From Verrucosispora sp. WMMD573 (GTDB lineage Bacteria > Actinomycetota > Actinomycetes > Mycobacteriales > Micromonosporaceae): a stretch of DNA of 64,000 nt. The stretch is taken from contig NZ_CP114901.1 in assembly GCF_027497175.1 (NCBI RefSeq), forward strand, positions 5,952,001-6,016,000, given 5' to 3'. The notes under the pieces are model-generated. The model saw nothing but the letters and a program-made list of their open reading frames with translations. It did not search any database and had not been told where the DNA came from. Within the stretch, counting starts at the first letter, position 1. Every line of letters starts with the position of its first letter. Below are positions 17,483 to 46,627 of this stretch, piece after piece. The translations under genes and the position numbers were made by a program.

Positions 17483-18598
17483 TCACAGGGCGAGGCAGTT
17501 GGGTTTGATCGCGGCTTCCCGGAGGACCTGTCGGACGACGGTGTAGGTGGTGCCGTCGAGCACCAGGCCGAGGTGACCGACCACACGCAACGGGCACCAG
17601 GACTGGATCAGTACGTTTGTCGCGCCGTCGGCCAGCTTCGCGTTGTCGACCGGTCGGACCAGTTCGTCCTGCCAGGTCCGCACCGCGGTCCAGCGCACCG
17701 GGGCCGGGGTGTCGTCGCCCGCGTTGAGGGCGGTGAGGAACGACGATCCGATGGTCATCTGCTGACAGGCGACCACGCCGGCACAGCTGCCCAGACCGAG
17801 GAACGACACGATGTTGGCCACGTACGTGCCGTACTGCGGGGTGCCCAGGCTGACGTAGCGTTCGACGGCGTCGTCGCCACCGAGGTTCTTGATGTAGTAG
17901 CGGCTGACCAGGCCCCCTTCGGAGTGTGCGACCAGGTCGACCTTGGCACCTCCGGTGGCGGCGCGGACCTGCCCCACATACCCGCGCAGCCCGGCGGCGG
18001 ACGCGGTGATGTCGCCGAGTCCCAGGTTGGGCAACTGGTAGATCCAGACCCGGTAGCCGTCGGCGCGCAGCCGGCCGGCAAGCGGCTCGTAGACAGCGGC
18101 GATGCCGCTGAGCCCACCGACCACGATGACCGGATTGGCGCCGGCCAGCGCCCGCAAGCCTGCGTCGGCAGCGGCCTCACGGGTGGACGCGACGCCGACG
18201 GACCCGGTCGCGTCGGCAGACCCAGCCTCGCGGACAGACCCAGCCTCGCGGACAGACCCGGCGGCGGCGCCGGGCGCAGGGAGCACGCCGGCCGCTGCGG
18301 TCGCACCGTTCGTGGTGGGGATGCCGGTGATGGCGGCGCCAGCAGGCCCGGCGGTGCCGGCAATCACGGTGCCGGTGGCGGCAACACCGGTACCGGCGGA
18401 GCCGGAGGTGGCGGAGCCGGAGGTGGCGGAGCCGGAGGTGGCGGAGCCGGAGGTGGCGGAGCCGGAGGTGGCGGAGCCGGAGGTGGCGGAGCCGGAGGTG
18501 GGTGCTGCCGTATCGGGTGGAGCGGCCGTGGCGGCGGGAGCCGCGAGGACGGCGACGACAGTGAGTGCCAGGACGGGGACAGCCTTTCGGAGCAGCAT
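17483..18598 (-). CDS. secreted lipase/esterase (alpha/beta hydrolase) with TSGSA repeat
   Basis: 371 residues. The signal peptide (MLLRKAVPVLALTVVAVLAA, cleavage near ATAAP) is followed by seven TSGSA pentapeptides (residues 34-68), a low-complexity linker to about residue 150, and an alpha/beta hydrolase domain. NPVIVVGGLSGIAAVYEPLA begins the domain and the nucleophile elbow is AHSEGG. SLGTPQYGT and VGHLGLVLD (catalytic His) resemble the Streptomyces/LipA class 2 lipases. It should hydrolyse lipids or esters outside the cell. ATG 18598 has GGGAGG 7 nt upstream. Confidence 0.85.
   Translation of the reverse strand: MLLRKAVPVLALTVVAVLAAPAATAAPPDTAAPTSGSATSGSATSGSATSGSATSGSATSGSATSGSAGTGVAATGTVIAGTAGPAGAAITGIPTTNGATAAAGVLPAPGAAAGSVREAGSVREAGSADATGSVGVASTREAAADAGLRALAGANPVIVVGGLSGIAAVYEPLAGRLRADGYRVWIYQLPNLGLGDITASAAGLRGYVGQVRAATGGAKVDLVAHSEGGLVSRYYIKNLGGDDAVERYVSLGTPQYGTYVANIVSFLGLGSCAGVVACQQMTIGSSFLTALNAGDDTPAPVRWTAVRTWQDELVRPVDNAKLADGATNVLIQSWCPLRVVGHLGLVLDGTTYTVVRQVLREAAIKPNCLAL
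18395..18499. repeat. 15-bp tandem repeat in the lipase gene
   Basis: Seven copies of a 15-bp unit (ggaggtggcggagcc on the plus strand) encode TSGSA x7 between the signal peptide and the catalytic domain of the lipase. The unit is in frame, so copy-number change alters only linker length. Ser/Thr-rich linkers of this kind are often O-glycosylated in actinobacteria. Confidence 0.85.
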
Positions 18599-20010: not shown

Positions 20011-20214
20011 CCGCACGACAGCGACCCGGCCGATCTCGAACCCACCGCACGACAGCGACCCGGCCGATCTCGAACCCACCGCACGACAGCGACCCGGCCG
20101 ATCTCGAACCCACCGCACGACAGCGACCCGGCCGATCTCGAACCCGCGCCACGACAGCAACCCGGCCGATCTCGAACCCGCGCCACGACAGCAACCCGGC
20201 CGATCTCGGCCGCG
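20011..20214. repeat. 34-bp tandem repeat, six copies
   Basis: Units start at 20011, 20045, 20079, 20113, 20147 and 20181. The first four are nearly identical (ccgcacgacagcgacccggc followed by cgatctcgaaccca) and the last two carry shared substitutions. A 34-bp period is not a multiple of three, so it is not a coding repeat. It fills part of the 660-bp space between TerC and the pentapeptide gene. The remainder (19637-20010) has imperfect GC-rich duplications around the words ttgcggcat and catcccgc, and no convincing gene. Confidence 0.9.
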
Positions 20215-25651: not shown

Positions 25652-26797
25652 TCAGCGCAGGGTGCGGAAGAGCAGCAGGTAACCGCAGTAGGCGAGGGGT
25701 ACCGCGAGGAAGCAGATCAGGAAACCCAGGACCGGATGGCGCGGCGGGGTGGCGGCGCCGACGGCCGGCCGCCCCCAGCGGCCGAGCACCAGCCAGCCGC
25801 CGATCAGCGCCATGGCGGGCAGGCCGGCGAGCATCCAGGCGAGCAGGGTGCCCAACCCGACCACGCCGAGGCTCCAGCCGAACGTCAGGACCAGCAACAG
25901 CAGCCCCGCGATGCCGGCGGCACCGGCGTAGACCGCGACCGCTCGGGCCCGCGACGACCAGCCAGGTAACAGCGCCGGTTGCTGGGCGAGTAGTTCCGCC
26001 TGCTGCCCGTGCCGGTCGGCCTCATCGGCCCAGCGCCGGGCCAACTCCAGCTCCGTCGCCGGGTCGACCTCACCCGTGCGCGGGCTCGGCACCCCCGCCG
26101 CCGTCGCGCTCACCGCCACCGGCAGCGCCGGGTTCGTCTCCCCCACACCAACCGGGGAGTACGCCCCGACATCCGGCCGCCCCGGGGCGGCGGCTGCGCC
26201 GCCGTCCGACCCCGTCCTTGGTCCCCACCCGCCGCCCGGGTAGCCGGGCGAACCCGGCGGCCGACCCGGCGGGTCCGACACCGGTGCGCCGGTCGACGAC
26301 GGCCCGGCTGGGCCGGACACGGGTGCCCCGCTCCACGACTGGTCTGGCGGGGCCGGCGGGCCGGACACCGGCGCGCCGGTCGGCAACGGCCCGGCTGGGC
26401 CGGATACCGGCGGGCCGGGCGGGGCCGGCGGGCCGGACACCGGCGGGCCGTTCGGCGGCGGACCGGCTGGGCCGGATACCGGCGGGCCGGGCGGGGCCGG
26501 CGGGCCGGACACCGGCGGGCCGTTCGGCGGCGGACCGGGAGGCGGGCCACCGGGCATGACTCCGCCCGGCGTGGCACCGGTCGGTGCGGTGCGGCTCGGG
26601 CCGCCCGGTGCGATGCCGATGGTGCGGCCGAGGTGGTCGAGGCGCTGCCCCTGCGCGGTCAGCCGCCGGTCGAGGTACTCCACGGCCGCGCCGAGATCGC
26701 GCTGCCGTTCGGCCTCGGCGGCGGCGCCCTGCTCGCCCACGCGGTGCTGCACCGCTAGGTGACGGGCCAGCGCCGCGTACTCGTCGAAGGTGGACAC
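25652..26797 (-). CDS. proline-rich membrane protein
   Basis: 381 residues. An N-terminal helical region (residues 1-60, RQRDLGAAVEYLDRRLTAQG) is followed by a Pro/Gly-rich repeat region (about 78-210) with 24-residue units GPPPNGPPVSGPPAPPG and so on. A charged helix then leads to four hydrophobic segments (about 275-300, 303-325, 330-345 and 355-380). The layout suggests a membrane scaffold with an extended cytosolic arm. GTG 26797 starts 3 bp after the stop of the FtsK-like ATPase gene, indicating an operon and probably a shared complex. Confidence 0.8.
   Translation of the reverse strand: MSTFDEYAALARHLAVQHRVGEQGAAAEAERQRDLGAAVEYLDRRLTAQGQRLDHLGRTIGIAPGGPSRTAPTGATPGGVMPGGPPPGPPPNGPPVSGPPAPPGPPVSGPAGPPPNGPPVSGPPAPPGPPVSGPAGPLPTGAPVSGPPAPPDQSWSGAPVSGPAGPSSTGAPVSDPPGRPPGSPGYPGGGWGPRTGSDGGAAAAPGRPDVGAYSPVGVGETNPALPVAVSATAAGVPSPRTGEVDPATELELARRWADEADRHGQQAELLAQQPALLPGWSSRARAVAVYAGAAGIAGLLLLVLTFGWSLGVVGLGTLLAWMLAGLPAMALIGGWLVLGRWGRPAVGAATPPRHPVLGFLICFLAVPLAYCGYLLLFRTLR
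26306..26536. repeat. 72-bp coding repeat in the proline-rich protein gene
   Basis: Two nearly identical 72-bp units (26393-26536) and a diverged third (to about 26306) encode the 24-residue Pro/Gly-rich repeat. The period is in frame, so length variation between strains is likely. Confidence 0.75.
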
Positions 26798-44306: not shown

Positions 44307-44900
44307 TCAGCGGATCGTCGGGTCCTCGCCGCGGTCCAACGCCTCCCACGCATCGATGGTGCCCGCCCCACCGATCGGACCGCTGGTGCCGGCAGGCCGA
44401 GTGGTCCGACGTTCGTAACGCGCGCCCATCGCCGGCCAGCGGTGACCACGCAGCATGGTCAGCGAACCACCGACGGCGGCGAGGATCCCGCCGAGCAGGG
44501 TCAGCGCCGGCCACTGCCAGGTGACCGGGTCGCCGAGATCACCGACGATCCCGTAGCCTCCACCGGCCGCGAGGGCCAGGCCGAGCAGGGTCAGCAGCCC
44601 GCCGAGCACTCGGCGCAGCCGGCCCCGGGTGGCCAGCACCGCCCCGCCACCGGCCAACCCGACGAGGGCCAGGGCCGGCAGCCACGGCAGCAACTGCCCG
44701 CCCGTGCGGCCCTCCTCCACCAGCAGCAGCGTCGGTTCGCCTCGGCTGACCGCGCCGAGCACCCAGGTGCGAGTCACGGCCCACAGCGCCAGCCCCGCGC
44801 CGGCCAGGCAGAGCAGCACGGCGTACGCCAGTTCGCGCCGGCCCGGCACCGGTCGCGCGTCCCCGGTGCCGCGTTCCCCCGGCACGCTCCCCGCGCTCAC
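44307..44900 (-). CDS. Trp biosynthesis-associated membrane protein (TIGR02234 family)
   Basis: 197 residues with four membrane segments (about 22-42, 66-86, 96-114 and 124-146) and a C-terminal cytosolic tail ending DAWEALDRGEDPTIR, the characteristic tail of this actinobacterial family always found in trp operons. Its role is unknown; membrane anchoring or transport linked to tryptophan synthesis has been suggested from context. GTG 44900 overlaps the TGA of the last mini-ORF in the 59-bp repeat array, with GGAAGG 8 nt upstream, so its translation is tied to ribosomes arriving from trpE. Confidence 0.92.
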   Translation of the reverse strand: MSAGSVPGERGTGDARPVPGRRELAYAVLLCLAGAGLALWAVTRTWVLGAVSRGEPTLLLVEEGRTGGQLLPWLPALALVGLAGGGAVLATRGRLRRVLGGLLTLLGLALAAGGGYGIVGDLGDPVTWQWPALTLLGGILAAVGGSLTMLRGHRWPAMGARYERRTTRPAGTSGPIGGAGTIDAWEALDRGEDPTIR

Positions 44901-44959
44901 CGAGCCGACCTTCCGCTCGCGACTGCGGGACTCCGCTGCGCTACATTCCTCGCGCTCAC
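44897..44959 (-). CDS. mini-ORF 3 of the trp junction array
   Basis: The third 20-codon frame, like mini-ORF 2 but with Ser for Trp near the end (GRSAR). Its GTG overlaps the TGA of mini-ORF 2, and its TGA overlaps the GTG of the trp-associated membrane protein at 44900. GGAAGG precedes it at 8 nt. Confidence 0.4.
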   Translation of the reverse strand: MSARNVAQRSPAVASGRSAR

Positions 44960-45018
44960 CGAGCCCACCTTCCGCTCGCGACTGCGGGACTCCGCTGCGC
45001 TACATTCCTCGCGCTCAC
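44956..45018 (-). CDS. mini-ORF 2 of the trp junction array
   Basis: The second 20-codon frame (SARNVAQRSPAVASGRWAR after the GTG). Its GTG overlaps the TGA of mini-ORF 1 and GGAAGG lies 8 nt upstream (45027-45032), so it has both a ribosome site and coupling. Confidence 0.4.
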   Translation of the reverse strand: MSARNVAQRSPAVASGRWAR

Positions 45019-45077
45019 CGAGCCCACCTTCCGCTCGCGACTGCGGGACTCCGCTGCGCTACATTCCCCGCGCTCAC
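45015..45077 (-). CDS. mini-ORF 1 of the trp junction array
   Basis: A 20-codon frame, GTG start overlapping the trpE TGA (GTGA), encoding (V/M)SAGNVAQRSPAVASGRWAR then TGA. It has no ribosome site of its own, so it would be read only by ribosomes finishing trpE. Whether a peptide accumulates is unknown; the act of translation may be what matters. Confidence 0.4.
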   Translation of the reverse strand: MSAGNVAQRSPAVASGRWAR

Positions 45078-46627
45078 CGGGCCGGCCGGAGGGTTTCCGC
45101 GGCGGCGATGGCCGCCAGCACGGCGGCAGCCTTGTTCCTGGTCTCCTGGTCCTCGGCGGCCGGGTCGGAGTCGGCCACCACACCGGCGCCGGCCTGCACG
45201 TACGCCCGGCCGCCCCGGATCAGCGCGGTCCGGATCGCGATGGCCATGTCGAGATCTCCGGCGAACCCGAAGTAGCCGACCGTCCCGCCGTAGAGGCCCC
45301 GGCGGACCGGCTCCAACTCCTCGATGATCTCCATGGCGCGTACCTTCGGCGCGCCGGAGAGCGTGCCCGCCGGGAAGGTCGCGGCGAGCGCGTCGAAGGC
45401 GGTGCGGTCCGCCCGCAGCGTGCCGATCACCGTGGAGACGATGTGCATCACGTGGCTGTACCGCTCGATGGTGGCGAACTCCGGCACCTCGACCGTGCCG
45501 GGACGGCAGACCCGGCCCAGGTCGTTACGGCCCAGGTCGACAAGCATCACGTGCTCAGCGCGTTCCTTCGGGTCGGCGAGCAGCTCGGCGGCGAGCCGGG
45601 CGTCGGCCTCCGGGGTCGCGCCACGCGGTCGGGTCCCGGCGATCGGATGCAGCAGTGCCCGCCGCTCGCCATCCACCTCACCGGTCACCTTCAGGTGCGC
45701 CTCCGGTGACGAGCCGACGATGTCGAAGTCGTCGAAGCGCAGCAGGTACATGTAGGGGCTGGGGTTGGTGGTGCGCAGCACCCGGTAGACGTCCAACGGG
45801 TCGGCGTCGGTCTCCCGCTCGAACCGCTGGGCGAGCACGATCTGGAAGCACTCGCCGGCCCGGATCGCCTCCTTCGCCGCCTCCACCGCCTTCGGATACC
45901 CGCCGTCCGGTGTGCGGCTGCGGACCTCGCCGGCCGGCGGACGGGCGACCGTGGCGACCATCGGCGGGATGGGCCGCGACAGCGCCGTGGTCATCGCGTC
46001 CAGGCGGCCCACCGCGTGGTGGTAGGCGGCGACGACCCGCTCGTCGCGGCCCGGCTCGTCCAGCGGGGGCAGGATCGCGTTGGCGACCAGGATCGCCGAA
46101 CCGTCGAAGTGGTCGAGCACCACCAGGTCGGTGGCGAGCATCATGCCCAGTTCGGGCAGGCGCAGGTCGTCCTCCGTGAACACGGGTAGCCGCTCGAACC
46201 GGCGGATCAGGTCGTAGCCGAGATAACCGACCATGCCGCCGGTCAGCGGTGGCATCCCGTCACCGGGGGTGCCGGGCGGGCCGGCCAGCGCCGTCACCGT
46301 CGCACGCAGCACCTCGACCGGGTCCCCGGAGGTCGGCAGCCCGGCCGGCGGCACGCCGAGCCAGGCCGCGGAGCCGTCGCGCTCGACCAGGGTGGCGCTG
46401 CTGCGCACCCCGACGAAGGAGTACCGGGCCCAGGCCAACCCGGATGAGCCGACGCCCTGCTCGGCGGACTCCAACAGGAACGTCCCCGGGCCACCGGCGA
46501 GCTTGCGGTACACCCCGACCGGGGTCTCCGCGTCGGCGAGCAGCCGGCGGGTGACCGGCACCACCCGCCACCGGGCGGCCAGTTCGCTGAAGGTGGCCGC
46601 GTCCGGACTCACCCGACCGTCGCTCAT
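45074..46627 (-). CDS. trpE: anthranilate synthase component I
   Basis: 517 residues. The N-terminal feedback region contains GTFLLESAEQG (the LLES motif binding tryptophan). The chorismate-binding domain has CFQIVLAQRFE, HPIAGTRPRGATPEADARLA, LVDLGRNDLGRV and the terminal YVQAGAGVVADSDPAAEDQE. It makes anthranilate from chorismate with a glutaminase partner (TrpG) that is not in this window. ATG 46627 has GGAG 7 nt upstream and lies 67 bp after hisI. Its stop begins the GTGA chain of mini-ORFs leading to the trp-associated membrane protein. Confidence 0.97.
   Translation of the reverse strand: MSDGRVSPDAATFSELAARWRVVPVTRRLLADAETPVGVYRKLAGGPGTFLLESAEQGVGSSGLAWARYSFVGVRSSATLVERDGSAAWLGVPPAGLPTSGDPVEVLRATVTALAGPPGTPGDGMPPLTGGMVGYLGYDLIRRFERLPVFTEDDLRLPELGMMLATDLVVLDHFDGSAILVANAILPPLDEPGRDERVVAAYHHAVGRLDAMTTALSRPIPPMVATVARPPAGEVRSRTPDGGYPKAVEAAKEAIRAGECFQIVLAQRFERETDADPLDVYRVLRTTNPSPYMYLLRFDDFDIVGSSPEAHLKVTGEVDGERRALLHPIAGTRPRGATPEADARLAAELLADPKERAEHVMLVDLGRNDLGRVCRPGTVEVPEFATIERYSHVMHIVSTVIGTLRADRTAFDALAATFPAGTLSGAPKVRAMEIIEELEPVRRGLYGGTVGYFGFAGDLDMAIAIRTALIRGGRAYVQAGAGVVADSDPAAEDQETRNKAAAVLAAIAAAETLRPAR

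Follow-up and report, generated by a model that had tools for sequence, protein, structure and literature searches.

A three-unit mini-ORF array downstream of trpE in Verrucosispora sp. WMMD573 as a probable tandem expansion of a dispersed, MIRU-like repeat of Micromonosporaceae

The array of three short reading frames between trpE and the next gene of the trp operon in Verrucosispora sp. WMMD573 is, with a probability that we put at about 0.8, a three-unit tandem expansion of a dispersed, MIRU-like intercistronic element that is transparent to translation. It lies in the window, by which we mean the whole stretch of 64,000 nucleotides that was analyzed, and positions refer to that stretch unless stated otherwise. 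An earlier sequence-only reading had described three 59-bp tandem units, each with a frame running from GTG to TGA, between trpE and a TIGR02234-like gene, and this description proved exact (minus strand, 45077-44901). The order on the minus strand is trpE, the three 59-bp units and the gene of a 197-aa membrane protein, with the following features:

45074..46627, minus strand: trpE, anthranilate synthase component I, the upstream gene (NF010086, 815.5 bits, cut-off 693)
45019..45077, minus strand: unit 1, 59 bp; mini-ORF 1 with its stop is 45077-45015
44960..45018, minus strand: unit 2, 59 bp; mini-ORF 2 is 45018-44956
44901..44959, minus strand: unit 3, 59 bp; mini-ORF 3 is 44959-44897
44909..44914, minus strand: GGAAGG, Shine-Dalgarno-like, in unit 3, 8 nt 5' of the terminal GTG
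44897..44900, minus strand: terminal GTGA, the stop of mini-ORF 3 and the start of the membrane-protein gene
44307..44900, minus strand: downstream gene, 197 aa, TIGR02234-like trp-operon membrane protein (38.2 bits)

The trpE stop TGA (45076-45074) lies inside the first GTGA (45077-45074), and each mini-ORF opens with GTG, has 20 codons followed by TGA and overlaps the next frame by 4 nt. The GGAAGG motif was also read from the sequence at the equivalent place in units 1 and 2. Tandem Repeats Finder gave the array a period of 59, 3.3 copies, 97% matches and a score of 364, and a 48-base unit pattern (up to three mismatches allowed) had three matches in the window, with 0-1 mismatches, as opposed to none in 100 shuffles. 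The products of trpE, trpC and trpB score above the cut-offs of their models; the TIGR02234 label of the downstream gene is weak, as its 38.2 bits stay below the curated cut-off of 71.15, although its position in the trp operon fits. Other tandem repeats were seen in the window. A 34-bp unit is repeated 5.8 times at 20011-20208 (97% matches), with a period not divisible by 3 and with long open frames running across it on both strands; a perfect 15-bp repeat, GGCGGAGCCGGAGGT, occurs in 7.1 copies (100%) at 18395-18501 and is possibly Gly-rich coding sequence; and an imperfect 72/87-bp GC-rich array with sub-repeats occupies 26243-26538.

A search for the 59-bp unit across the genome and its relatives, which the sequence-only reading had named as its first check, revealed a dispersed repeat. 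With the array DNA as query, 14 matches were obtained in the organism's own genome (the array itself included), and 37 of 61 genomes were matched: every one of the 37 same-genus genomes and not one of the 24 that belong to other genera. Because this query favors arrays of 59-bp units, a sequence-only profile was built from 26 units. With this profile, the own genome yielded at least 40 unit matches (E 0.1 or better), and three other single-contig genomes yielded at least 57, 57, and 42 (E 0.001), all of these per-genome counts being lower bounds from a limited number of scored candidates. Within the family, matches at E 1e-4 were present in at least 76 of 150 genomes and at least 27 of 44 genera, and 74 genomes gave no profile match at that threshold. 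Among 200 genomes of the order, at least five weak matches from outside the family (E 2.7e-4 to 8.2e-4) were counted as unproven. The named carriers are Micromonospora and Verrucosispora species. Units across the family are 53-68 bp long and form arrays of one to six, so that the proposal of a 59-bp period preserving every GTGA junction is right for the trpE array and does not extend to a general rule. A scan of the own genome with a 15-base pattern (2 mismatches) failed to separate the family, giving 412 matches versus 321 for the reversed pattern; the window's perfect minus-strand copies were absent among the matches listed, and the profile was used instead.

The location of the units is very non-random, mostly at the start codons of genes. 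We compiled 110 sites, 20 from the own genome (the three weakest of the 40 matches, with E 7.5e-4, 0.036, and 0.069, were omitted) and 90 from the three other genomes, the latter clustered among the matches listed (156 counted). An NTGA was sought at both ends of each site, with A/G/TTGA as anchors at sites and A/GTGA in controls, and genes were called mechanically as open frames of at least 60 codons with high third-position GC. At 69 of the 110 sites a coding ORF ends with the first TGA, and at 92 a coding ORF begins with the last NTG; the other 18 lack a 3' anchor or a coding start at that end. Both the stop and the start are found at 64 of the 110 sites, compared with 1.8% of 2690 control RTGA from the same loci. 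This joint figure is the more trustworthy one since 41% of the controls pass the start test from inside genes; 3.1% of them are the stop of a coding frame. As the first NTGA is the upstream stop and the last the downstream start, the unit reads in the direction of the genes. The neighbors are ordinary operon pairs, including argJ/argB, nuoM/nuoN, and pyrC/carA (all above their model cut-offs), a thiolase with a FadJ-like gene and PotB/PotC-like permeases (FadJ and permease labels below cut-off), and lysA lies downstream of one copy. A scatter unrelated to stop-start junctions, which the sequence-only reading had named as grounds for its own refutation, is thus not what was found, and the relay architecture suggested by the sequence-only reading is borne out by this placement over 110 sites in four genomes and by the over-representation of the -4 phase described below. 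Its own alternative, a dispersed repeat that happens to carry a ribosome site and a start codon, is likewise correct in part, on dispersal and on the Shine-Dalgarno-like stretch, which is usual.

Empty and filled alleles exist at the same junctions. The trpE locus was compared by eye at 18 of 19 named loci (L075 does not reach trpE) and in three further genomes. No unit interrupts the direct GTGA/ATGA overlap in CP22, gifhornensis, rosaria, Asanoa ishikariensis, and Jatrophihabitans, and none was recognized by eye at the trpE locus of the more distant Phytoactinopolyspora and Geodermatophilus. One unit is present in sediminis, zingiberis, phaseoli, sonchi, and endolithica, two in sioxanthis, endophytica, qiuiae, and two further genomes, and three in the genome of the window and one other; C95 has three, followed by an assembly gap. 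A decayed unit is found in lutea and a 20-nt remnant in HNM0581. Copy number at trpE, which according to the sequence-only reading could change by slippage, therefore varies between species from 0 to at least 3 units. Units are 93% identical within a trpE array (13 pairs) versus 86% between species (218 pairs), a likeness that fits tandem duplication and homogenization after arrival. In Micromonospora sp. C95 (L088), a run of N lies inside the trpE array; assemblies may collapse or break such arrays, and unit counts from draft genomes are possibly too low. At the trpE loci of M. zingiberis, M. phaseoli, M. sonchi, M. qiuiae, and M. endolithica, the start of the membrane-protein gene is apparently made of element sequence. 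After the terminal GTG at L077, L082, L083, L085, and L087, the first codons of the downstream gene are element sequence (GTGAGCGCGAGGA..., read MSAR...), which looks like a further, shortened unit that has become part of the coding region.

The same comparison was made for 19 sites of the own genome, whose joined flanks were searched in four close species. Fifteen were read and trpE was added, giving 16; L137, L138, and L140 are not among the sites read, and L141 gave no flanks. Read by eye, 11 of the 16 sites (L122, L123, L124, L125, L126, L130, L131, L132, L133, L134, and L139) have an empty allele in at least one of five species, and the number of units differs between species at all 16. 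At L130, the empty allele reads ...CTCAA followed directly by GTGAAGCGC, and the filled allele reads ...CTTCG, 59 nt of element and then GTGAAGCGC. At L137, the length of the match, as distinct from the alignment itself, fits one unit in all four species.

Unit lengths are biased with respect to reading frame. Among 153 units of 88 sites, the length is 2 mod 3 in 107, with the mini-ORF stopping inside the next NTGA in 105; it is 0 mod 3, an in-frame fusion, in 38 and 1 mod 3 in 8. For the 47 single-unit sites, the corresponding numbers are 40, 6, and 1. Because the units are related by descent and arrays multiply their own copies, these counts are not independent. More informative is a comparison of the two ways in which the phase can be lost: 24 of the 88 sites contain a unit of 0 mod 3 and 6 a unit of 1 mod 3 (two-sided binomial 0.0014), the rarer kind being the one that puts the downstream gene out of frame. 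The bias would reflect selection. A simulated relay of termination and restart, run on 86 sites as were the ribosome-site and flank-match analyses (24 of the 110 were dropped for lack of an NTGA anchor at one end), reaches the downstream start at 71 sites, compared with 27 when begun from the +2 frame. A run from the +1 frame is no control because the first TGA is met at once and the real path is repeated. Of the failures, 8 are fused in frame, 3 stay open to the end of the stretch, 2 end out of frame and 2 early. In the own genome, the relay is complete at 11 of the 16 sites with both anchors, the others being fused (3), out of frame (1), or early (1). The mini-peptide itself has no codon-position signal in 27 units (entropy 0.80/0.68/0.79), and selection on it was rejected on that ground. 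At L134, L133, L206, and L195, unit lengths of 54 or 60 bp bring the first GTG into the frame of the downstream gene, so that automated gene calling could give that gene an N-terminal extension consisting of repeat sequence.

These observations are consistent with a model in which the element is placed at the NTGA of a start codon, very often one overlapping the stop of the previous gene. The first GTGA would then give the upstream gene its stop and the mini-ORF its start, the element would bring a Shine-Dalgarno-like GGAAGG or AAAGG, and its end, or a duplicated target, would provide the next NTGA. Translation could in this way run from gene to mini-ORF to gene, so that an insertion would be nearly neutral for the operon, and at trpE the element would supply a ribosome-binding site to a junction that natively is almost without one. 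Calculated duplex energies with the anti-Shine-Dalgarno sequence average -7.0 kcal/mol before the first NTGA and -6.1 before the last over the 86 sites, with -3.0 for 1856 control RTGA. The native ribosome site is on average slightly stronger than that of the element (Wilcoxon 0.011), and the first NTGA looks like the true old start. We lean, by a little, towards ribosomes using the relay in vivo alongside independent initiation, with reinitiation suggested by the arrangement of stops and starts. Independent initiation is possible throughout because a Shine-Dalgarno-like stretch usually precedes the last NTG. Taken as the whole explanation, it would make the element a portable ribosome-binding site with a start codon, with de novo starts at the GGAAGG before each NTG and a stop/start overlap that is only the by-product of inserting at NTGA. 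It is favored by duplex energies of -4 or lower before the terminal NTG at 76% of the 86 sites versus 31% of the 1856 controls, and by the own trpE array, where the value is -6.4 kcal/mol before the terminal GTG (element) versus -2.2 before the first GTG (native). It leaves unexplained, however, why 107 of the 153 units are in the -4 phase and only 8 out of frame, and why sites with an out-of-frame unit are rarer than sites with an in-frame one. We regard it as less likely than not.

Mini-ORFs 1 and 2 of the window each have Trp as their third-to-last codon. That such codons might make the relay sensitive to tryptophan had been proposed, and this idea did not survive comparison. The units of the trpE locus were parsed at 12 loci (22 units; L075, L089, L091, and L092 were left out, as were the two qiuiae units, the degenerate lutea unit and the HNM0581 remnant). 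Twenty of the 22 end exactly at the next NTGA, and the remaining two (G005, 60 bp) run in frame to the last overlap of the array. A Trp codon occurs in only three, two of them in the window and one in zingiberis. Conservation at this locus extends to the relay arrangement but not to the Trp codon. The repeat family also sits at argJ/argB, nuoM/nuoN, pyrC/carA, and other pairs. Against an attenuator, no terminator-like site was found in 44850-45150, and an Rfam search of 44800-45200 gave no RNA family match up to E 1. Sensing of Trp was rejected on the comparative data, and we give almost no credence to a trp-specific attenuator or Trp sensor made of mini-ORFs. A transcriptional role, with the repeat carrying a promoter that frees the downstream gene, has a precedent in the closest known system, the MIRUs at senX3/regX3, as reported in PMC4213456. 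Yet a scan of 44850-45150 for sigma-70-like promoters (the one promoter type covered) found none, and the specificity for junctions and frames is translational, making such a role improbable here.

REP/BIME elements and their RAYT transposases are a system of short dispersed repeats with a tetranucleotide at the end of a hairpin. The units studied here are likewise short and dispersed with a tetranucleotide at the end of a possible hairpin. An explanation of this kind was considered, in which they are hairpin elements, of RNA or of DNA, that have GTGA as the hairpin foot and are moved by a Y1 transposase. A consensus hairpin that begins at GTGA has one fully covarying pair in 26 units (G-C 17, A-U 9), which was seen again in 87 units (GC 72, AT 12). 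This pair may, however, simply mark subfamilies. The folding of three single units was not better than that of shuffled sequences (z -0.54, 1.34, 0.80), and from the larger alignment just 5 pairs were predicted, none with a double change. The Y1 transposase domain PF01797 had no match in the own genome, while the same search was positive in 5 of 14 control genomes. The location at start codons is a further difference from REP/BIME. Apart from the one covarying pair, the signal of a conserved RNA hairpin is weak. A Y1 transposase as the mover was rejected, none being present in the own genome, and the hairpin explanation as a whole is very unlikely.

The elements have presumably moved by transposition. 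Two sites of one genome (L175 and L198, both G032) have 14-nt repeats, up to and including the NTGA, flanking a single unit. At L198, the filled allele has AGGAGGCGTC followed by GTGA on both sides, and one empty relative has ...GGGGAGGCGTC followed by GTGAACG once; three other relatives are less alike at the target. At L175, relatives carry a similar target once. These two clean cases suggest that some insertions duplicated the ribosome site along with the start codon. At L139, a 16-nt target stretch is found on both sides in sediminis, a case equally explained by tandem duplication because the repeat continues into a partial second unit. Over the 86 sites, the 5' flank matches the end of the last unit for 5.49 nt on average versus 4.34 nt when permuted (reached in 0 of 2000 permutations), and long target duplication as a general rule was rejected, since only 8 sites reach a match of 9 nt or more. 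At L122 and L123, which carry the family's own AAAGG-type end, the empty alleles show the ribosome site to have come with the element. Most insertions would have occurred without duplication of the ribosome site, or the duplication may have decayed since. Where the first and last NTGA differ, G is first and A last in 13 of 14 cases, which would fit an element that mostly arrives with a GTGA of its own, the native start staying on its downstream side. At L138 (positions 6084677-6084956 of the own genome), five 58-bp units start with GTGGCTGACGCGAGG instead of GTGAGCGCGAGG, and the array ends at a gene starting GTGGCTGACC, so that the left end of the unit follows the target's own start.

How MIRU-like elements enter start codons without breaking operons has, to our knowledge, been open since they were first described. 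A review states that MIRUs appear mobile and insert at start codons, and that the MIRU ORF becomes coupled at -4 nt spacing with a likely minimal impact on the gene (PMC12548453); PMC4213456 describes several MIRUs in the interval that separates senX3 from regX3, two genes of an operon. The family described here resembles them as a short, dispersed and tandem repeat at start codons that often overlap an upstream stop, with an internal ORF that would be coupled at -4 nt, to judge from the 105 units and 71 complete relays counted above. As regards mobility, the observations are presence/absence differences between species and the two clean target duplications; neither an act of transposition nor a mobilizing enzyme was seen. 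MIRUs have mycobacterial hosts, whereas our repeat belongs to another bacterial family, the Micromonosporaceae. We are fairly confident of its identity as a MIRU-like family and file it as such, not as MIRU, the likeness having been drawn from descriptions of MIRUs. Two papers, PMC6728339 and PMC10666635, deal with the coupling of gene pairs that overlap. Gene pairs with termination-reinitiation at ATGA/GTGA have the same kind of 4-nt junction as the units; unlike in ordinary pairs, the junction is here multiplied by an inserted repeat, and the mini-ORFs have no apparent protein-coding function. The enterobacterial RU-1/2/3 are described in the text of PMC2759123 consulted here as small, MITE-like mobile intergenic repeats of 103-168 bp with reading frames; they are larger than our units, and a targeting of stop/start junctions was not seen in that text. 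A literature search, with stretches of the unit sequence among the queries, returned no paper on this repeat recognizable from titles or the beginnings of abstracts, most subscription journals being outside its scope.

Element sequence has seemingly been read as the N-termini of genes, which is a warning for annotation. A speculative extension, which we consider doubtful, is that spread targets translation initiation regions, copying ribosome site and start, and that the chains are heritable, adjustable relays in which the number of units sets downstream expression. If that were true, each insertion would rebuild a working stop-Shine-Dalgarno-start junction behind itself. The family is abundant in actinomycetes of a large group, and closely related species can differ in having an empty or a filled allele at a given gene pair. 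Such alleles make the insertion step, the use of the relay, and any effect of copy number directly testable.
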